Part shown: piece after piece, positions 55,312 to 64,000 of the stretch | Position numbering within the stretch: the first letter of the stretch is position 1 | Layout: each line of letters opens with the position of its first letter | Made by a program: the position numbers and the translations under genes | Notes under the pieces: model-generated | What the model was told of the DNA's origin: nothing | Database searches by the model: none | Seen by the model: the letters and a program-made list of their open reading frames with translations, nothing else | Source: Xanthomonas sontii | GTDB taxonomy: Bacteria; Pseudomonadota; Gammaproteobacteria; Xanthomonadales; Xanthomonadaceae | Direction: 5' to 3' | Assembly (NCBI RefSeq): GCF_040529055.1 | Contig: NZ_CP132342.1 | Coordinates: forward strand, 2,664,001-2,728,000 | DNA length: 64,000 nt

Positions 55312-55386
55312 GGGCGGTTAGCTCAGCGGTAGAGCACTACCTTGACATGGTAGGGGTCACAGGTTCGAACCCTGTACCGCCCACCA
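55312..55386 (+). tRNA. tRNA-Val (anticodon GAC)
   Basis: The 75-nt cloverleaf has acceptor GGGCGGT pairing with ACCGCCC, anticodon arm CTACC-TTGACAT-GGTAG with GAC, T-arm CACAG-GTTCGAA-CCCTG region, discriminator A and encoded CCA. Confidence 0.96.
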
Positions 55387-55538: not shown

Positions 55539-55796
55539 ATGGTGGAATACCATCATACGGTGCAAGTCAAAGGACGCTACCAGCTCGTGGCGTTGACCCG
55601 GGAGCCGGACTACAGCCAGGCCAACGTGGTGGGCTATACGGTCACCACCGACGGCGGTGCGCGGGTGGATCCGCACGACATGTCCTGGGACGAGGCGCGT
55701 GTCTTCCTGGACACCCTGATCGAGCGCGATCGGGACGCGGTCAGCGCGGAAAAGAAGCCCTCGCGGAACAAGCCGAGCACGCGGCAGCGTCGCTAG
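55539..55796 (+). CDS. Small protein of unknown function between tRNA-Val and virD4
   Basis: This 85-aa product begins MVEYHHTVQVKGRYQLVAL and ends in a basic tail (KPSRNKPSTRQRR). It has a short strand-rich first half and an acidic helix (SWDEARVFLDTLIERDRD). AGGAGG lies 12 nt before ATG 55539, which supports translation. There is no signal peptide or membrane segment. I do not recognise a family. It stands alone 255 nt before virD4; whether it belongs to the secretion locus is unknown. Confidence 0.55.
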   Translation: MVEYHHTVQVKGRYQLVALTREPDYSQANVVGYTVTTDGGARVDPHDMSWDEARVFLDTLIERDRDAVSAEKKPSRNKPSTRQRR

Positions 55797-55990
55797 CGCG
55801 TCTGCACGTCTGGGCGGTCGCAAGCCCACCAGCAGTACTCGCCGGGCAGGACGTGCCGAAGTCCCGGGCATTGCGCAGGCGCCATCTAGGGCCTGGCGCT
55901 TGTGACGGGCTGACCTCCCTGGCCAAGCGCCGTTTCCGGTCGATGCCGTGCTTGCAGGTCATCCCGACGCGTACACCACCGACGCAACTC

Positions 55991-56050
55991 CTTTCAAAGC
56001 GCGGAACTCGCTCTAGAATGTCGGCCAGGATGGATCAGGGAGGATAGGGC
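55991..56050 (+). promoter_or_regulatory. Candidate promoter and GGA-rich short leader of virD4
   Basis: TAGAAT (56014-56019) is preceded by CTTTCA 17 nt upstream. The leader contains AGGATGGATCAGGGAGGAT, with three GGA triplets, the last inside the ribosome site of the TTG at 56051. This would suit a CsrA/RsmA-type translational repressor. The preceding 55797-55990 shows no gene. Confidence 0.4.
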
Positions 56051-57724
56051 TTGTCGAATCGTAAACTCGTTGCGGCGGCGCTCGTCGTCGTGCTCACAGC
56101 CGTCTGCGGCTATTTCCTGTCCGGCTACCTGGTCCTGCTGCTGCTGAAGCTGGACACACGGATGTTCGGGCTAGGCACCTACTACCAGTACGTTCATGCC
56201 ATCGGCTTGCCGGAGGTGGCTCCGTACGTCGGCAAGATCAAATGGGCCGGCTACCTCGGCTTCGGCTTGCCCGGCCTGGTGGCCCTGCTGATCCTGGTAC
56301 TGATGTTCAGGCCGCCCAAGCGCAGCCTGCATGGCGACGCGCGCTTCGCCGGCGCGGCCGATCTGTCCAAGCATGGGCTGTTCAAGACCAGCGGCGACGG
56401 CATCGTGGTCGGCAAGTTCCGCGGCAAGCTGGTGCGCCTCAGCGGCCAGCAGTTCGTGATCCTGGCGGCCCCGACCCGGTCGGGCAAGGGCGTCGGCGTG
56501 GTCATTCCGAACCTGCTGGAGTACCAGGAATCGGTGGTCGTCCTGGACATCAAGCAGGAGAATTTCGATCTGACCAGCGGCTGGCGCGCCAGCCAGGGCC
56601 AGGAGGTGTTCCTGTTCAATCCGTTCGCCGAGGACCGTCGCACCCATCGCTGGAATCCGCTCAGCTATGTCTCCGACGATCCGGCGTTCCGCGTCTCGGA
56701 CCTGATGAGCATCGCCGCCATGTTGTATCCGGATGGCTCCGACGACCAGAAGTTCTGGGTCAGCCAGGCGCGCAATGCATTCATGGCGTTCTCGCTCTAC
56801 CTGTTCGAGAACTGGGACGACGAGCGCAACATCGGCTTTCCCGGCGGTCTCGGCACGCCGACGCTGGGCGCGATCTACCGTCTGTCGTCCGGCGACGGCA
56901 CCGACCTGAAGAAGTACCTGAAGTCGCTGTCGGAGCGGCGCTTCCTCAGCGGCAATGCCAAGTCGGCGTTCTCCAACCTGCTGTCGCAGGCGGACGAGAC
57001 CTTCGCCTCGATCATGGGCACGCTGAAGGAGCCGCTCAATGCCTGGATCAATCCGGTGCTGGATGCGGCCACCAGCGACAACGACTTCCTGCTGACCGAC
57101 CTGCGCAAGAAGAAGATGACCATCTACATCGGCATCCAGCCCAACAAGCTGGCCGAGAGCCGCCTGATCATCAACCTGTTCTTCAGCCAGATCATCAACC
57201 TCAACACCAAGGAACTGCCCAAGAGCAATCCGGCGCTGAAGTATCAGTGCCTGCTGCTGATGGACGAGTTCACCGCGATCGGCAAGGTCGACATCATCGC
57301 CTCGGCAGTGTCATATATGGCTGGCTACAATGTCCGCCTTCTGCCGATCATCCAGAGCATGGCGCAGCTCGATGCCACCTATGGCAAGGACATCTCGCGG
57401 ACCATCATCACGAATCATGCACTGCAGATTCTCTACGCTCCGCGCGAGCAGCAGGATGCCAACGACTACTCCGAGATGCTCGGCTACACCACCTTCCGCA
57501 AGAAGAACGTCACCCGCGGCAAGGATGTGACCCGAAGCGTGTCGGAGGAGAAGCGGGCGCTGATGCTGCCGCAAGAGTTGAAGGCGATGGGCAACGATCA
57601 AGAGGTGTTCTTGTACGAGGGCATTCCGCATCCGGTGAAGTGCGACAAGATCAAGTACTACAAGGATCGCTACTTCACCGCGCGGCTGCGTCCCAAAGTC
57701 GATATTCCGACACTCTCGATATGA
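56051..57724 (+). CDS. virD4: Type IV secretion coupling protein VirD4 (TTG start)
   Basis: This 557-aa ATPase recruits effectors to the type IV secretion channel. Two N-terminal membrane segments (about 7-33 and 66-86) precede the motor domain. Walker A is PTRSGKGVGV (about 141-150) and Walker B LLLMDEF (about 400). An all-alpha domain between them would bind substrates; in the Xanthomonas system it recognises the XVIPCD tail of effectors. GGGAGGA stands 6 nt before the TTG. The next gene is virB7 385 nt downstream. The order virD4-virB7-B8-B9-B10-B11-B1-B2 matches the X-T4SS. Confidence 0.93.
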   Translation: MSNRKLVAAALVVVLTAVCGYFLSGYLVLLLLKLDTRMFGLGTYYQYVHAIGLPEVAPYVGKIKWAGYLGFGLPGLVALLILVLMFRPPKRSLHGDARFAGAADLSKHGLFKTSGDGIVVGKFRGKLVRLSGQQFVILAAPTRSGKGVGVVIPNLLEYQESVVVLDIKQENFDLTSGWRASQGQEVFLFNPFAEDRRTHRWNPLSYVSDDPAFRVSDLMSIAAMLYPDGSDDQKFWVSQARNAFMAFSLYLFENWDDERNIGFPGGLGTPTLGAIYRLSSGDGTDLKKYLKSLSERRFLSGNAKSAFSNLLSQADETFASIMGTLKEPLNAWINPVLDAATSDNDFLLTDLRKKKMTIYIGIQPNKLAESRLIINLFFSQIINLNTKELPKSNPALKYQCLLLMDEFTAIGKVDIIASAVSYMAGYNVRLLPIIQSMAQLDATYGKDISRTIITNHALQILYAPREQQDANDYSEMLGYTTFRKKNVTRGKDVTRSVSEEKRALMLPQELKAMGNDQEVFLYEGIPHPVKCDKIKYYKDRYFTARLRPKVDIPTLSI

Positions 57725-58109
57725 AAGTGTGACGAAAAACACCTATTTTTTGGGCGTATTTATCATTTGAACGTTTTTTTGCCAAATGCTTGACGTGGGC
57801 ATGCCCCTGCGGCACATTCTCGCGAGTATGGCGGTGCGTTGGTAACAGAAACAGGAACAGGGGCGTGGGCCGAACGGCGCACGTAAGGGGTGACATGGAA
57901 GGTTTGCTGTCAAATTCCGTTTTCTTCGGCGCTGATCGCGCGGCCTCGGATCCGTCCGGTTGTCTGCCGCAGATCCGTGCCCGCGCCGTTCCCGGCGCCT
58001 TCCTTGCCGCGACGCGCGTGTCGTGCCGTCGCGTCGAACTTCGCCATCCAGCAGTGGGCCGCCTGCGCGCCGCCCGCTCTCTATACGTTTCCGCAATTCA
58101 GAGGCTCGC
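57725..58109 (+). promoter_or_regulatory. Long leader and candidate promoter of the virB7 operon with CsrA/RsmA-type GGA motifs
   Basis: The first 60 nt are AT-rich with TTTTTT and TTTTTTT tracts. TTGACG (57790-57795) is a good -35; the best -10 candidates are CACATT (57813) or CATTCT (57815). A leader of about 280 nt follows. It includes ACAGGA (57851-57856) and ACATGGAAGG (57893-57902), which fit the ACANGGANGU consensus of CsrA/RsmA sites nearly fully. The short open frame at 57895 is probably not a gene. Confidence 0.5.
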
Positions 58110-58547
58110 GTGAAAAGAACGCATATGTTTCGGCTGATCGCTACGTTGAGTGCCGTCGCGCTGTTGAGCGCCTGTGCAACCAGGCCGGCACCCGACTTCC
58201 GCGGCAAGTGGAAGCCGGTCAACCGTTTCTCCGAGTCGACCATGGAGATCCCGCTGTACTCGTCGTACGTGTATCAGGCGATCCCGATGGACGGCACGCT
58301 CAAGACGATGCTCGAGCGCTGGGCCAAGGATTCGAACATGCAACTGTCCTACGGCATCCAGTCCGATTACACGCTGTATGCCCCGGTCGCCAAGATCAAC
58401 ACCACCAGCATCCAGCAGGCGGTCGCCGAGCTGAGCGTGGTCTATGCGCAGGAAGGGCTGAGCGTGACCGCGGCGGGCAATCGCATCCTGGTGCAGCCGT
58501 CGTCGTCGCTGAGCGGCGCGCCGGCAGCCAGCGGCAGCGCGAAGTGA
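58110..58547 (+). CDS. virB7: VirB7 outer-membrane lipoprotein with C-terminal N0-like domain
   Basis: This 145-aa lipoprotein (140 aa from the ATG at 58125) has lipobox LLSAC (Cys22 counting from GTG 58110, which has GAGG 5 nt upstream). Classical VirB7 is about 40-60 aa; here a folded domain follows (MDGTLKTMLERWAKDSNMQLSYGIQSDYTLYAPVAKINTTS...), similar to the N0/STN domain described for Xanthomonas VirB7. It should form the outer ring of the core complex with VirB9 and VirB10. The 58-bp gap to virB8 has no other feature. Confidence 0.88.
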   Translation: MKRTHMFRLIATLSAVALLSACATRPAPDFRGKWKPVNRFSESTMEIPLYSSYVYQAIPMDGTLKTMLERWAKDSNMQLSYGIQSDYTLYAPVAKINTTSIQQAVAELSVVYAQEGLSVTAAGNRILVQPSSSLSGAPAASGSAK

Positions 58548-58608
58548 CGTCACCGTCGGCCTGCACGCTGCGCGCCGACAGCCACATTACGAAACCTGGT
58601 GAAGTCTG

Positions 58609-59604
58609 ATGTTCGGTAAAAAGCCGGTCGAAAGCGAAAACGTCAACAAAGCGGTAGCGAAGGCGGTCAACTACGAAATCAGCATTGCTGATCTGGCTCG
58701 CCGCAGCGAGCGCCGTGCGTGGTGGGTCGCGTTCGGGGCGATCATTTTGTGTTTGCTTCTCGGTGGTGGTTACTACTACATGCTGCCGTTGAAGCAGAAA
58801 GTGCCGTATCTGGTGATGGCGGATGCGTACACCGGCAATTCGACGGTGTCGGTGCTGCGCGACATCAGCGATATGCACAGCATCACGACAAGCGAAGCGT
58901 TGGCCAGAAGCAATGTGGCAAGGTTCATCACCGCCAGAGAGTCCTATGATTTCGAGATGATGGGACTCAACGACTGGGATACGGTGTTCTCGATGGCGCC
59001 AAAGTCCACGGCGGTGGGCGCCGATTACTACAATTTGAATGTAGGTAATCCGAGTTCGCCATACAACACGTACGGTAAGGCTCGAGCCATTCGGGTGAAG
59101 ATCTTGAGCATCAACCTGCTGGGTGGAGGCGGCAAACCCTACACTGGTGCCAATGTTCGCTTCCAGCGCAGTGTTTACGACAAGAAGAACGGCCAGTCCA
59201 CGTTTCTGGACAACAAGTTCGCCATTCTTGGCTTCCGCTACAACAACAATCTTGCGATGGAAGAAAATCTGCGCGTCCAGAATCCGCTCGGCTTCCAGGT
59301 AACCGATTACCGGGTCGACAACGATTATTCGGCCATGCCGGTTCCTCCGTCGGCTGCCGTGCAGGCGCCTGCAACTGGTGCGGCTCAGCAGCCGATGACG
59401 GTGCAGCAGCAGGTACCAGGGCAGCAGCAGGTACCAGGGCAGCCGATGGCGCCGGACGCGAACGGCTCCATGCCGTTCCCGCAGCAGGCGCCGATGCCCA
59501 ACCCGGCGAGCCCGCCTGTCTATCAAGGGGGGCAGCCGGCTACGGCGCCCCCTGCACCCAACGTTGCACCTCAGCACAACGGTAATGGAGCGAACGTTCG
59601 ATGA
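58609..59604 (+). CDS. virB8: VirB8 inner-membrane assembly factor with Gln/Pro-rich tail
   Basis: This 331-aa protein has one membrane helix (about 38-58) and a periplasmic VirB8 domain (about 70-235) ending near NPLGFQVTDYRVDNDYS. The last 95 residues are a Gln/Pro/Ala-rich tail, longer than in Agrobacterium VirB8 (237 aa). The tail contains two identical 18-bp units at 59404-59439. It overlaps virB9 by 4 nt. The protein nucleates the inner-membrane complex. Confidence 0.9.
   Translation: MFGKKPVESENVNKAVAKAVNYEISIADLARRSERRAWWVAFGAIILCLLLGGGYYYMLPLKQKVPYLVMADAYTGNSTVSVLRDISDMHSITTSEALARSNVARFITARESYDFEMMGLNDWDTVFSMAPKSTAVGADYYNLNVGNPSSPYNTYGKARAIRVKILSINLLGGGGKPYTGANVRFQRSVYDKKNGQSTFLDNKFAILGFRYNNNLAMEENLRVQNPLGFQVTDYRVDNDYSAMPVPPSAAVQAPATGAAQQPMTVQQQVPGQQQVPGQPMAPDANGSMPFPQQAPMPNPASPPVYQGGQPATAPPAPNVAPQHNGNGANVR
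59404..59439 (+). repeat. Two tandem 18-bp units in the virB8 tail
   Basis: CAGCAGCAGGTACCAGGG occurs twice without gap, coding QQQVPG twice. Unit number may vary between strains by slippage. Confidence 0.85.
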
Positions 59605-60362
59605 GTTTCCTGACGAAAACCGGTTCGGCGCATCTTGCGTTGCTGGCTCTGGGCCTGTTCGCGCCGATCGCGTCGGCCCAGGTGGTCCAGCAGTACGAGT
59701 ACGAGCCTGACAAGATCTATCAGGTGCGTACCGGCCTGGGCATCACCACCCAGATCGAACTGAGCCCGAACGAGAAGATCCTCGATTACAGCACCGGTTT
59801 CACCAGTGGCTGGGAACTCAGCCGTCGCGAGAACGTCTTCTACCTGAAGCCGAAGAACGTCGACGTCGACACCAACATGATGATCCGCACCGCCACCCAC
59901 TCCTACATCCTCGAATTGAAGGTGGTAGCGACGGATTGGCAGCGGCTGGAGCAGGCCAAGCAGGCCGGCGTGCAATACAAGGTGACCTTCACCTATCCGA
60001 AGGACACCAGCTTTGCCGCAGCCAGCGACGAGGTGAAGGACGAGTCGCAGCTCGACACGCGCTTGACCAAGGATCGTCATTACTACTTCGACTACGACTA
60101 TTCCACGCGTTCCAAGCAAATGTGGATCGTGCCGAGCAGCGTCTACGATGATGGCAAGTTCACCTACATCAAAATGGATCTGACGCGTTTCCCCACTGGC
60201 AACTTCCCGGCCGTGTTCGGTCGCGAGAAGGAGAGCGATGAGGATTTCCTGGTCAATACGACAGTCGAGGGCAACACCCTGATTGTCCATGGGACCTATC
60301 CCTTCCTGGTCATCCGCCACGGCAAGAATGTTGTCGGCTTGCGTAGGAACAAGCAAAAGTGA
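59601..60362 (+). CDS. virB9: VirB9 core-complex protein
   Basis: This 253-aa periplasmic/outer-membrane protein has a signal peptide (1-26, ending ASA-Q). The N-terminal domain starts QVVQQYEYEPDKIYQVRTGLGITTQIELSPNEKI, typical of VirB9/TrbG, and the C-terminal VirB7-binding domain includes DDGKFTYIKMDL, NTLIVHGTYPFLVIRHGKNVVGLRRN. It overlaps virB8 and virB10 by 4 nt each, so these genes are coupled. Confidence 0.94.
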   Translation: MSFLTKTGSAHLALLALGLFAPIASAQVVQQYEYEPDKIYQVRTGLGITTQIELSPNEKILDYSTGFTSGWELSRRENVFYLKPKNVDVDTNMMIRTATHSYILELKVVATDWQRLEQAKQAGVQYKVTFTYPKDTSFAAASDEVKDESQLDTRLTKDRHYYFDYDYSTRSKQMWIVPSSVYDDGKFTYIKMDLTRFPTGNFPAVFGREKESDEDFLVNTTVEGNTLIVHGTYPFLVIRHGKNVVGLRRNKQK

Positions 60363-61537
60363 ACTCGAATCTACCCCCGTCTGACGAAAACTACGGCAAC
60401 GACCACGGTCAGCCGCGTTCCCCGCATGCGGACGATGCGCCGCGCGAGAATCCCTATTTCGCTCGCCAGCAGCAGACCGCTGACCCGGATCTGGACGCCA
60501 ATGAGCCGGTGCTCCGCTCCAGCGATCTGAAGAAGCTCAATCGCAAGGCGCTGGTGTTCCTGGGCGGCATCGCCGTGCTGTTGATCCTGGCGATCTTCTG
60601 GCTGGTGAGCGGCAGCAGCACGCCTGCGCCGGCGCCGAAGCCGCGCCAGGAAGCGGTAGTGGCGCCTGCGCTGCCGCAGACGGCACCGCCGCCGCCGGTG
60701 CAGCCGGCTGAGCCGGTACAGCTGGCTGAGCAGCCGAGCCTTCCGCCGCTGCCGCCGATGCCCACTGACAATGACCCCATGGTGCAGTCGTCGTCTCGGC
60801 AGGACCGCGGGCCGTCCCTCCTGGAGCGGCGCATGGCCGGCATGCAGCAGGAAGCAGGCATGGGCGGGCAGGGTATCGGCATGCCGCAGGGTCAGGAGCA
60901 GGGAGGCTTGCAGCAGCAGGACCAGGTGACGTCCGCCAAACCGATCGCCAACCCGGACGGTCTGCTGGTGCGCGGCACCTATATCCGTTGCGTGCTGGAG
61001 ACCCGGATCATCACCGATTTCCCGGGTTTCACCTCCTGCATCATCACCGAGCCGGTGTACTCCATCAACGGCCGTCGCCTGTTGCTGCCGAAGGGATCGA
61101 AGATCCTCGGCCAGTACGGTTCCGCTGAACCGAACGGCCCGCGCATGCAGGTTGTGTGGGATCGCATCACCACCCCCACCGGCATCGATGTGACCCTGGT
61201 CGGACCCGGCGTCGACAACCTCGGCAGCGCCGGCCATCCGGGCCAATACAGTGCGCATTGGGCGAGCCGCATCTCGTCCGCGCTGATGATCAGCTTGCTC
61301 AGCGACGCCTTCAAGTGGGCGGCGGCCGAGCATGGCCCGAAGACCACGACCACCGGCATCAATTCCGGTGTGGTCACCCAGCAGCCGTACGAGAGCAACA
61401 CGGCGCAGTCTATCCAGCGTCTGGCCGACCAGGCCCTGGATCGCCGCCGTCCCGCCACCGTGACCATCAACCAGGGCACCATCGTGAACGTCTACGTCGC
61501 GAAGGACGTCGACTTCACGGCTGTGCTGCCGCGTTGA
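60359..61537 (+). CDS. virB10: VirB10 core-complex protein (GTG start)
   Basis: This 392-aa protein spans both membranes. It starts at GTG 60359 within the virB9 stop. A cytoplasmic N-tail (1-62), one inner-membrane helix (RKALVFLGGIAVLLILAIFWLV, about 62-84) and a Pro-rich linker (about 88-135) lead to the conserved TrbI domain (about 200-390): LLPKGSKILGQYGSAEPNGPRMQVVWDRITTPTGIDV and a short outer-membrane antenna region around SRISSALMISLLSDAF. Confidence 0.94.
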   Translation: MNSNLPPSDENYGNDHGQPRSPHADDAPRENPYFARQQQTADPDLDANEPVLRSSDLKKLNRKALVFLGGIAVLLILAIFWLVSGSSTPAPAPKPRQEAVVAPALPQTAPPPPVQPAEPVQLAEQPSLPPLPPMPTDNDPMVQSSSRQDRGPSLLERRMAGMQQEAGMGGQGIGMPQGQEQGGLQQQDQVTSAKPIANPDGLLVRGTYIRCVLETRIITDFPGFTSCIITEPVYSINGRRLLLPKGSKILGQYGSAEPNGPRMQVVWDRITTPTGIDVTLVGPGVDNLGSAGHPGQYSAHWASRISSALMISLLSDAFKWAAAEHGPKTTTTGINSGVVTQQPYESNTAQSIQRLADQALDRRRPATVTINQGTIVNVYVAKDVDFTAVLPR

Positions 61538-61556
61538 CCGAGATCGAGACAGCGAC

Positions 61557-62600
61557 GTGACCTTCGACGACTCTCCGACCGCGCAGATCTCCACGGATTT
61601 CCTGGATTACCAGTATTCGGTGCTGGGCATCCTGGATTACCTCAACTCGCCGGAAGTGACGGAAATCTGCATCAACCGTCCCGGCGAGCTGTACCTGGAG
61701 ACCCTGCGTGGCTGGCAGCGGATGGACATCCCGTCGCTGACGTTCGACCGCGCGCGGCAGTTCTGTACAGCGGTGGTCAACGAGAGCAATACCGGCCAGC
61801 GCATCACCGATGCCGATCCGGTGGTGTCGTTGACCTTTCCCACCGGGCAGCGCGCGCAGTTCGTGATCCCGCCGGCCTGCGACGCCGGCAAGGTGTCGAT
61901 CACCATCCGTCTGCCGTCAAAGCACACCAAGACCCTGGAGCAGTACAAGGAAGACGGCTTCTTCCAGGAGATCCTGGAGGTGCAGTCGGGTCTGAGCGAG
62001 CAGGATCGCGAGCTTCTCGAGCTCCGGCGGCAGCGCGATTACGCCGAGTTCTTCAAGAAGGCGGTGCTGTTCAAGAAGAATGTGGTGGTTGCCGGGGCCA
62101 CCGGTAGCGGCAAGACCACCTTCATGAAGTCGCTGGTGAATCACATCCCGCACGAAGAGCGGCTGGTGACGATCGAGGACGCGCGCGAGCTCTTCATCAG
62201 CCAGCCCAATTCCGTGCATTTGCTCTACTCGAAAGGCGGACAAAGCTCGAGCAACGTCACCGCGAAGAGCTGCATGGAAGCGTGCCTGCGCATGAAGCCC
62301 GACCGCATCATCCTTGCGGAGTTGCGCGGCGACGAGTCGTTCTACTTCATCCGCAACTGCGCCTCCGGTCATCCCGGTTCCATCACCAGCTGCCATGCTG
62401 GCAGCATCGGGCAGACCTGGGATCAGTTGGCGCTCATGGTCAAGGCGTCGGCCGAAGGGTCGGGCCTGGAGTTCGCCGTCATCAAGCGGTTGTTGATGAT
62501 GACGATCGACATCGTTGTCCACATCAAATCGCACGCGGGCCGGCGCTATATCACCGGTATCGATTTCGATCCGGAACGCATGCAGTCGGGTGGGGGATGA
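61557..62600 (+). CDS. virB11: VirB11 traffic ATPase (GTG start)
   Basis: This 347-aa hexameric ATPase acts at the inner face of the channel. Walker A is GATGSGKT (180-187), the Asp box VTIEDARELF, Walker B-like RIILAELRGDESFYF, and the His box GHPGSITSCHAGS. The GTG at 61557 is preceded by GAGACAGCGAC, a weak ribosome site. It follows virB10 by 19 nt. It powers pilus assembly and, with VirD4 and VirB4, substrate transfer. Confidence 0.95.
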   Translation: MTFDDSPTAQISTDFLDYQYSVLGILDYLNSPEVTEICINRPGELYLETLRGWQRMDIPSLTFDRARQFCTAVVNESNTGQRITDADPVVSLTFPTGQRAQFVIPPACDAGKVSITIRLPSKHTKTLEQYKEDGFFQEILEVQSGLSEQDRELLELRRQRDYAEFFKKAVLFKKNVVVAGATGSGKTTFMKSLVNHIPHEERLVTIEDARELFISQPNSVHLLYSKGGQSSSNVTAKSCMEACLRMKPDRIILAELRGDESFYFIRNCASGHPGSITSCHAGSIGQTWDQLALMVKASAEGSGLEFAVIKRLLMMTIDIVVHIKSHAGRRYITGIDFDPERMQSGGG

Positions 62601-62637
62601 ATATGTTCATTAAAGTGATAGGGCGAAACAGCGCCGA

Positions 62638-62734
62638 TTGACTTTGAATTTTTCTTCCAACACGATTGATTTGCGACATCTGCGGCGTTCTGGGCGATTT
62701 GCCACGACGCCGATGCATAGGGAGTAACCACGGC
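62638..62734 (+). promoter_or_regulatory. Possible internal promoter between virB11 and virB1
   Basis: TTGACT (62638-62643) followed after 17 nt by CACGAT (62661-62666) is a moderate promoter candidate in an AT-richer gap of 134 nt. It could raise virB1-virB2 expression. A GGAGT ribosome site (62721-62725) precedes virB1. Confidence 0.3.
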
Positions 62735-63619
62735 ATGTTGCCAGGCATGGAACTACTCAGCTGTCCCGAAATGGCGGTTCCGGCTGAAGTCATGCAGCAC
62801 GTTGTGCGCGTCGAGTCGTCGCACAATCCGTTCGCGATCGGTGTGGTCGGTGGTCGCCTGGTGCGCCAGCCGCAGAACCTGTCCGAAGCGGTGGCCACGG
62901 CGCGGATGCTGGAAGAGAAGGGCTACAATTTCTCCCTCGGTCTCGGGCAGGTCAACCGCTACAACCTGATCAAGTACGGCCTGAATACCTACGAAAAAGC
63001 ATTCAGGACCTGTCCCAATCTGCAGGCCGCCTCGAAGATCCTGGCCGAGTGCTATAGCCGCTCCGGCGGCAACTGGGGCAAGTCGTTCAGCTGTTACTAC
63101 TCCGGAAACTTCGAGACCGGGTACCGCCACGGTTACGTGCAGAAGGTCTACGCGTCGATCAACCAGGGCAGGGCGCTCGCCGCGTCCACCGCTGGTGCGA
63201 TCCCGGTGATCCCGGCCGGAAGCGTGCGTCGTGTGGTCAACGACTCGGTGAGGGCCGCGGCGGTGCGCGAAGTCGATTCGATCGTGTCGCGGCGCATCGA
63301 CGCGGCGGCCAATCGACTCGCCAGCGATCTTGCGACGCAAGCTCAATCATCAGTACGTTCCCAGGCTGCCATTCCAGCGCCGGTGCAGCCAATAGCGGGT
63401 GCTATGGTTGCCGCATCGGCGCAGGCGACGGCTGCAGATTCCGATCTCTACATCATACGACCGACAGGCGCCGGCAAAGGAGTGGCGGTTCCTGCAGGTG
63501 GCGGAGCGACTCCAGCTCCGCAACCTCCCGCGCACGCGCCTCAGGCGGTGGCGGGAGCGGCCGTTCCTGGCGCAAGTACGCCGCCGCCGACGTCGGGCGA
63601 CGGGGCCTTCGTATTCTAG
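62735..63619 (+). CDS. virB1: VirB1-type lytic transglycosylase with long C-terminal tail
   Basis: This 294-aa protein contains an SLT-fold domain (about 5-150). The catalytic Glu is E27 in MQHVVRVESSHNPFAIGVVGG, followed by LGLGQVNRYNL and CYYSGNFETGYRHGYVQKV. ATG 62735 has GGAGT 9 nt upstream. No signal peptide is visible from this start or from codons upstream, so the route to the periplasm is unclear. The last 140 residues are an Ala/Pro/Val-rich tail. It should open the peptidoglycan for the secretion channel. Confidence 0.88.
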   Translation: MLPGMELLSCPEMAVPAEVMQHVVRVESSHNPFAIGVVGGRLVRQPQNLSEAVATARMLEEKGYNFSLGLGQVNRYNLIKYGLNTYEKAFRTCPNLQAASKILAECYSRSGGNWGKSFSCYYSGNFETGYRHGYVQKVYASINQGRALAASTAGAIPVIPAGSVRRVVNDSVRAAAVREVDSIVSRRIDAAANRLASDLATQAQSSVRSQAAIPAPVQPIAGAMVAASAQATAADSDLYIIRPTGAGKGVAVPAGGGATPAPQPPAHAPQAVAGAAVPGASTPPPTSGDGAFVF

Positions 63620-63636
63620 CCAGATGCAGTAGCACG

Positions 63637-63654
63637 GCCATGCAAATGGCTTTT
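63637..63654 (+). terminator. Small hairpin with T-run between virB1 and virB2
   Basis: GCCAT-GCAA-ATGGC-TTTT is a 5-bp stem with a T4 tail, 17 nt after the virB1 stop. It is weak as a terminator and might act as an attenuator or processing site before the pilin gene. Confidence 0.3.
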
Positions 63655-63688
63655 GATCACCCCCTGTTTTCCAGTCAAGGAGTTACTC

Positions 63689-64000
63689 ATGAAGTTCAAT
63701 AACGATCAAGTGAAGTCGAACGCCAAGGTTGTTGGTACGGCGGCGTTGAAGGCGGCAGTGTTTGTCGTCGCATTGCTCGCGTCCAACTTTGCGATGGCGC
63801 AGGAGTATGCAGATGTCGACACCAAGGTGTGTGGCTTCCTCGGCAAGACCAACAACATCCTGAACATGGCATCCATCGTGGTGGTGACGATCGCGGTCGT
63901 GTTCGCCGGTTACCAGATCGCGTTCGCACACAAGCGCGTTGCCGAAGTGGCGCCGGTGCTGCTGGGTGGCGTGCTGATCGGCGCGGCCGGTCAGTTGGCC
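63689..64000 (+). CDS. virB2: VirB2 pilin, cut by window end
   Basis: The first 104 codons are present. AAGGAG precedes ATG 63689 by 6 nt. A long signal peptide (about 1-37) ends FAMA-Q. The mature part has a Cys (VCGFLGKTNNILNMAS) and two hydrophobic helices (IVVVTIAVVFAGYQIAF and APVLLGGVLIGAAGQLA) typical of VirB2. The pilin forms the pilus and part of the channel. The stop lies just beyond the window. Confidence 0.9.
   Translation, partial: MKFNNDQVKSNAKVVGTAALKAAVFVVALLASNFAMAQEYADVDTKVCGFLGKTNNILNMASIVVVTIAVVFAGYQIAFAHKRVAEVAPVLLGGVLIGAAGQLA

Follow-up and report, generated by a model that had tools for sequence, protein, structure and literature searches.

A polymorphic VirB6-tail/DUF4189 module in an antibacterial type IV secretion system of Xanthomonas, with a possible role in the sparing of kin

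CDI and Rhs exemplify polymorphic toxin-immunity systems: a protein with a constant N-terminal part ends in a variable C-terminal tip, a cognate gene is linked to it, and tips with their partners also occur as displaced orphan cassettes. Several plasmids carry an exclusion gene that adjoins virB6. In F conjugation, TraS of the recipient interacts with TraG, the VirB6-type subunit of the donor (accessible text of PMC12624023). The Xanthomonas citri-type antibacterial type IV secretion system (T4SS), or X-T4SS, delivers effectors with an XVIPCD domain into rival bacteria. X. citri lacking many immunity proteins is still spared by wild-type sisters, through what the available part of a 2024 report calls a 'still-to-be-characterized mechanism' (PMC10933484). 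The subject here is a locus of this kind that runs off the end of a 64-kb window, the whole stretch of DNA analysed, which belongs to a Xanthomonas chromosome assembled as one contig of 5.02 Mb (G000:C1:2664001-2728000). Just past the window end, the C-terminal tail of VirB6 and the DUF4189 protein encoded behind it form a polymorphic module, and the module, its displaced cassettes in relatives and the linkage of tail and DUF4189 alleles are well supported.

By its gene content, the locus is a complete chromosomal X-T4SS, a known kind of system, predicted to deliver dispersed XVIPCD effectors into rival bacteria. The first-pass annotation had read the order virD4-virB7-B8-B9-B10-B11-B1-B2 in this way, and Pfam matches together with alignment of VirB10 and VirB7 to the X. 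citri core complex 6GYB bear it out; virB3-virB6, which it expected further right, are all four present past the window end. The full class-A set of virB1-B11 plus virD4 thus occupies one chromosomal cluster, with virD4 and virB7 first. In common with the X-T4SSs of X. citri and S. maltophilia, as the accessible parts of PMC6536674 and PMC6759196 describe them, it has the gene set, the VirB7 N0 domain, the VirB8 extension, VirB10 and XVIPCD effectors, several with upstream lipoprotein genes. VirB10 aligns end to end with X. citri VirB10 of 6GYB (556 bits). The VirB8 extension (87 aa, start set by the analysts) is 67% A+Q+G+P; in the accessible part of PMC6536674 such extensions reach 45-73% in eight of the ten listed, and 32 and 39% in two from Neisseria. 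The only differences found from known X-T4SSs are the motif ahead of the VirB7 N0 domain, which is MEIPL in place of [T/S]EIPL (same source), and the lack of effector genes adjoining the locus; some adjoin that of S. maltophilia.

A relaxase, which together with an oriT next to the locus would have counted against the annotation, gave no match genome-wide for PF03432 or PF08751, in a search that left out other relaxase families and oriT. VirD4 and TrbI are each matched once in the genome, and the sole structure in the PDB matched by VirD4 is Helicobacter pylori Cag5. A second, conjugative T4SS is ruled out by this single VirD4 and single TrbI, the second TrbL match belonging to an unlinked virB5-virB6-DUF4189 cassette. 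XVIPCD proteins, whose absence would have counted against the annotation, are encoded in the genome: PF20410 has 11 matches above the Pfam cut-off, in 10 regions. Their expected place to the right of the locus proved wrong, because none of the 11 lies close to the T4SS and the nearest is ~198 kb to the left; effectors encoded at the locus itself are likewise ruled out.

The machine belongs to a known kind, and the VirB6-tail/DUF4189 module is the new part. Positions past the window end are given as window equivalents (genome C1 position minus 2664000). On this scale virB6 (PF04610), which encodes the inner-membrane subunit of the channel, lies at 67954-69033, followed by three DUF4189 genes (PF13827) at 69030-69539, 69664-70152 and 70333-70821, the first of which overlaps the 3' end of virB6 by 4 nt. 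Across 49 VirB6 proteins (those with a named source come almost entirely from Xanthomonas), the top residue has a frequency of 0.59-0.98 in ten-position blocks up to position 320, apart from block 91-100, which is mostly gaps (0.22). At positions 321-350 the frequency falls to 0.20-0.26, delimiting a hypervariable segment of ~30 aa, and at 351-360 it returns to 0.52 with a GxRGxA-like end. To the eye the segment is rich in Asn/Ser/Gly/Gln/Pro and apparently disordered. Variation is fast: for 109 of 120 listed proteins (1479 matches in all), the 227 pairs with constant regions at least 98% identical have a median tail identity of 52%, and 44% of them fall below 50%.

In relatives, displaced cassettes of a virB6 3' fragment plus a DUF4189 gene lie behind some virB6 genes. 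Counts come from 57 of 59 fetched loci, two (L099, L100) having been dropped as other T4SSs; since many loci were chosen for DUF4189, adjacency counts from them are biased. At least two near-complete DUF4189 genes are present in 34 of the 57, with up to six in one locus, and 17 have C-terminal fragments of virB6. Partial virB6 matches number 47: 28 C-terminal, 10 N-terminal and 9 other. Where a full virB6 is compared with copies in its own locus, 30-column blocks of the protein alignment are mostly 0.6-1.0 identical over the membrane part and 0-0.65 over the tail, and the adjoining DUF4189 proteins are 0.31-0.75 identical, with one pair at 0.91 (L093). At the DNA level, six loci (L077, L078, L086, L089, L114 and L116) keep an identity of 0.9-1.0 in 40-column blocks up to the tail, then 0.17-0.82 (about 0.2-0.7 for the blocks of the tail), with the minimum within or just past the tail; full gene and fragment have some 160-280 nt of near-identical DNA in common. 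The drop is less sharp in L068 and L065. Further DUF4189 copies in the fetched loci are intact in 66 cases and not in 23, whereas further virB6 copies comprise 1 full and 47 partial ones, so DUF4189 tends to be kept while displaced virB6 pieces are incomplete. The four virB6 copies in the incomplete cluster of X. euvesicatoria 85-10, given in the accessible text of PMC10432156, fit such cassette arrays. Separately, a 3.5 Mb Xanthomonas genome (G170; L122, L123) retains DUF4189 genes next to short virB6 pieces, and both its long TrbL matches are of the high-scoring type.

The likeness to CDI and Rhs lies in the constant N-terminal part, the variable tip, the cognate neighbour gene and the orphan tip-plus-partner cassettes, with identity high only upstream of the tip, as seen in relatives. 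Unlike in CDI and Rhs, the variable part is only ~30 aa on a core subunit of the secretion channel, with a partly conserved end behind it.

Tail and DUF4189 alleles are paired. Over 69 of 80 cassettes (four without the boundary motif and seven too short were left out), the partial correlation between VirB6 tail and DUF4189 allele, given the constant region, is 0.57, a value that 0 of 2000 permutations attained; inside the genus it is 0.72 (n=25). As a control, in 49 full copies DUF4189 correlates at 0.50 with the tail, against 0.21 with VirB5. Where a locus has more than one DUF4189 gene (29 loci), the tail correlates at 0.47 with the first and at 0.32 with the second. A choice test within loci, less exposed to shared ancestry, used 78 of the 80 cassettes: with each locus counted once, the best tail match and the best DUF4189 match fell on the same cassette in 12 of 15 loci (6.6 expected). 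When a tail margin was applied, agreement rose to 53/60 at 0.05 and 31/31 at 0.1, in comparisons that are not independent of one another.

The association of DUF4189 with VirB6 is strong across the family. In 198 Xanthomonadaceae genomes searched, DUF4189 occurs in 68 (217 matches) and TrbL/VirB6 in 86. Among the 150 DUF4189 matches listed, on which the linkage counts rest, 138 have a VirB6 (TrbL) match on the same strand no more than 8 kb upstream. Ten of the other 12 were fetched, and five of these lie behind short virB6 fragments missed by Pfam; an eleventh (L076) is behind virB4 at a place where virB5-virB6 are missing, and the twelfth was not fetched. A listed DUF4189 lies within 1.5 kb of 75 of 124 long TrbL matches. 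The 18 best TrbL matches (at least 128 bits) have none within this distance and perhaps belong to conjugative systems. In 18 stretches of the genus picked on TrbL below 117 bits rather than on DUF4189 (matches of at least 138 bits being left out), DUF4189 adjoins VirB6 or a virB6 copy in 16, the exceptions being L099 and L100. XVIPCD is present in 59 of 68 genomes with DUF4189 and in 20 of 130 without it (Fisher p 2e-23). In a class-wide sample of 369 genomes, 14 from outside the family have DUF4189 (E 0.001). The idea that DUF4189 adjoins virB6 on conjugative plasmids was dropped, as PLSDB gave one plasmid record with no virB6 annotated nearby. The Rhizobium plasmid pMK-2 (CP041205.1; L121), typed as conjugative, has four places that match DUF4189 (three annotated genes), with no annotated virB6 close to them.

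The module is not tied to the T4SS cluster. A second virB5-virB6-DUF4189 cassette lies elsewhere in this genome, at G000:C1:4515251-4520888 (L063:10252-15889), and the open reading frames (ORFs) of the 20-kb stretch around it include no further vir gene. In another genome (G153), the T4SS without virB5-virB6 retains one DUF4189 gene (L076), whose product is 93% identical to the cognate DUF4189 of another species, and the only TrbL/VirB6 match lies elsewhere, accompanied by virB5 (L075). Two X. campestris strains likewise have virB5 and virB6 away from the T4SS cluster (accessible part of PMC6536674). Such unlinked cassettes appear to be interchangeable heads of a single machine. Beside the second cassette of this genome lies a lipase-like gene with an upstream lipoprotein gene; by eye, the C-terminus of the lipase-like protein has a divergent likeness to XVIPCD, outside the Pfam matches.

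As far as literature searches with thin coverage of subscription journals show, the VirB6-tail/DUF4189 module has not been described: they returned no description of it and no paper tying DUF4189 to type IV secretion, and the term 'DUF4189' is absent from the main text of the X-T4SS review PMC6536674.

What the module may do is suggested by entry exclusion. DUF4189 proteins would act as exclusion factors by recognising the tail of VirB6 in the T4SS of a sister cell, making virB5-virB6-DUF4189 a self-recognition module, a proposal to which we give slightly less than an even chance. A little more tentative is the wider proposal that protection against fratricide comes from kin exclusion, through a hypervariable VirB6-tail password that periplasmic, allele-specific DUF4189 proteins would read, with displacement of cassettes creating the diversity and arrays keeping it, and not from effector immunity. 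The DUF4189 protein is cysteine-rich and apparently exported, to judge from a signal-like N-terminus seen by eye and helix 3-18 of the structural model. The third DUF4189 (70333-70821) has an atypical N-terminus and, by eye, a poor signal peptide, so it may lack export. In the proposed sequence of events, a new cassette of tail plus DUF4189 would enter virB6 by recombining within its conserved part and would push the old pair downstream, building an array. Periplasmic DUF4189 of the target cell would recognise a T4SS whose VirB6 has the matching tail, presumably by binding at some point of contact, and this recognition would block delivery in the manner of the entry-exclusion proteins of conjugation. 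Sister cells, and strains with the allele stored in their array, would then be spared.

Exclusion by DUF4189 fits an exported partner, the polymorphism, arrays that would widen protection and the retention of DUF4189 without virB6. The likeness proposed with TraS and TraG of F is that of a recipient-side protein recognising a VirB6-type subunit of the donor (PMC12624023, accessible text). A gene adjacent to virB6 is present here as in entry exclusion, and the allele match is one of genetic linkage only. Unlike in F, the machine here injects toxins, and there is allelic polymorphism, with alleles kept in arrays; TraS, in the same text, is an inner-membrane protein, whereas DUF4189 looks soluble and exported. 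The module is a concrete candidate for the sister-cell protection of X. citri left unexplained in 2024 (PMC10933484, as accessible). If the proposal is true, T4SS killers would recognise kin through a polymorphic system that resembles exclusion in conjugation, and the coexistence of plant-associated bacterial strains would become easier to predict.

Several observations weigh against kin exclusion. The topology of VirB6 speaks against its simple form: a review, in its accessible text, places the C-terminus of VirB6 homologues in the cytosol, while DUF4189 looks periplasmic, which leaves the meeting of tail and DUF4189 unexplained. The tail must then be exposed during attack, or the VirB6 of X-T4SSs differs; a plain hydropathy profile of VirB6 did not assign the membrane side of the tail. 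Binding of tail and DUF4189 is a prediction, and as the two are adjacent, joint transfer alone gives an allele correlation. The Mantel-type test leaves shared ancestry in, and without a margin the choice test gave 85/128 (55.7 expected), with 3 of 15 loci failing. The tails of 22% of near-identical VirB6 pairs are more than 90% identical. This genome has only extra DUF4189 genes, with no virB6 remnant between the three by blastn. The DUF4189 partner is not universal, since DUF4189 has no match in 20 of the 79 genomes with XVIPCD and 49 of the 124 long TrbL matches (18 of them of at least 128 bits) have no listed DUF4189 within 1.5 kb. Conversely, 9 of 68 DUF4189 genomes are without XVIPCD. The 14 genomes outside the family showed no DUF4189 behind a VirB6 gene; two of them have any TrbL match, in neither case ahead of DUF4189 on one contig, several of the assemblies being fragmented. 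The fold relative of DUF4189, Rv1813c of Mycobacterium tuberculosis (PDB 7nhz), has an unrelated biology and gives no function for DUF4189.

The same data can be read without exclusion. DUF4189 might be an ordinary periplasmic accessory of the T4SS, serving VirB6/VirB5 assembly or channel gating and co-evolving with the tail, with the arrays as leftovers of recombination. This explanation, which we hold to be unlikely, accommodates the 4 nt overlap with virB6, the DUF4189 gene behind all 54 full virB6 copies in the fetched loci and the allele correlation. It sits badly with as many as six near-complete DUF4189 genes in one locus, with the 66 of 89 further DUF4189 genes that stay intact against 1 full and 47 partial virB6 copies, with the DUF4189 that persists in G153 (L076) after virB5-virB6 have gone from the T4SS, and with the 20 XVIPCD genomes that do without DUF4189. 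The tail could instead be a small delivered toxin or toxin carrier with DUF4189 as its immunity protein; the anatomy of constant part, variable C-terminus, linked gene and orphan cassettes is that of polymorphic toxins, and a variable segment of just ~30 aa, of the composition noted above and with a partly conserved end, makes this very unlikely.

A further explanation, which strikes us as highly improbable, sees only a plain X-T4SS, with a disordered tail under no constraint and with DUF4189 as an unrelated hitch-hiker. The disordered look of the tail and the occurrence of DUF4189 without VirB6 in other families would suit it, whereas abrupt divergence at the tail after near-identical DNA inside one locus, the partly conserved end behind the variable segment, the allele pairing and the strong linkage of virB6 and DUF4189 would not be expected. 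Marginally more improbable still is a phage or other outside agent for which the T4SS is the receptor and which drives the diversity, with DUF4189 hiding the tail or acting as a decoy. T4SS-dependent phages are known and the tails change rapidly; the maintenance of DUF4189 arrays beside displaced tails, and a pairing specific to the tail, are left unexplained by such an agent.

All vir genes of the window lie on the + strand and span 56051-64000. Upstream are tRNA-Val(gac) (55312..55386, + strand) and an ORF of 85 aa (55539..55796, + strand) without a Pfam or NCBIfam match. The coupling protein gene virD4 (56051..57724) is the sole PF02534 match in the genome (E 8e-109). The virB7 gene (58125..58547, start set at ATG) encodes a 140-aa lipoprotein with an N0 domain, which matches X. 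citri VirB7 (6gyb_a, E 1.4e-52) and whose TcpQ-like N0 domain scores below the cut-off of Pfam; it is 99% identical to VirB7 of Xanthomonas sp. NCPPB 1128 and F10. It is followed by virB8 (58609..59604; PF04335, and composition for the AQGP-rich C-terminal extension), virB9 (59601..60362; PF03524), virB10 (60359..61537; PF03743, 6gyb_c), the ATPase gene virB11 (61557..62600; PF00437), the lytic transglycosylase gene virB1 (62666..63619, start uncertain; PF01464) and the pilin gene virB2 (63689..64000; PF04956), which is cut by the window end and stops at 64087. To the right of the window, the chromosome continues with the remainder of virB2, virB3 (64080-64391; PF05101), a hairpin (64414-64451), virB4 (64564-67035; PF03135), virB5 (67093-67878), virB6 and the three DUF4189 genes, so that the locus reaches ~7 kb past the window end. 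The virB5 product matched no Pfam or NCBIfam family and is assigned from position and similarity to other loci. Over 89% of its length, the first DUF4189 has 94% identity with a protein of X. sontii.

The hairpin lies in the intergenic stretch between virB3 and virB4 (64392-64563) and is strong in 23 of 24 loci compared, from several genera, the weak one being L072. Its place is conserved and its sequence differs from genus to genus. A possible role is to balance the output of virB7-B3 against that of virB4-B6.

The XVIPCD proteins are varied. A Pfam scan covered 10 of the 11, with two starts set by the analysts: two have peptidoglycan-binding domains, one of them also with a VgrG3-like C-terminal domain, one has a Mbeg1-like match, and seven have XVIPCD alone. 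ORFs with a lipobox lie immediately upstream of XVIPCD genes at L020, L021, L026 and L028 (by pattern) and at L024 (by eye). A stand-alone XVIPCD protein of 158 aa (G000:C1:461097-461573; L019:6098-6574) has the top PF20410 score in the genome. Short orphan XVIPCD proteins were dropped as a novelty, the small ORFs XAC0323, XAC1165 and XAC3404 being already in the accessible part of the review PMC6536674. Open frames of 166 aa in four other genomes (G006, G058, G085 and G153) score like the 158-aa protein, and this conservation suggests function rather than decay, perhaps as a ligand of VirD4.

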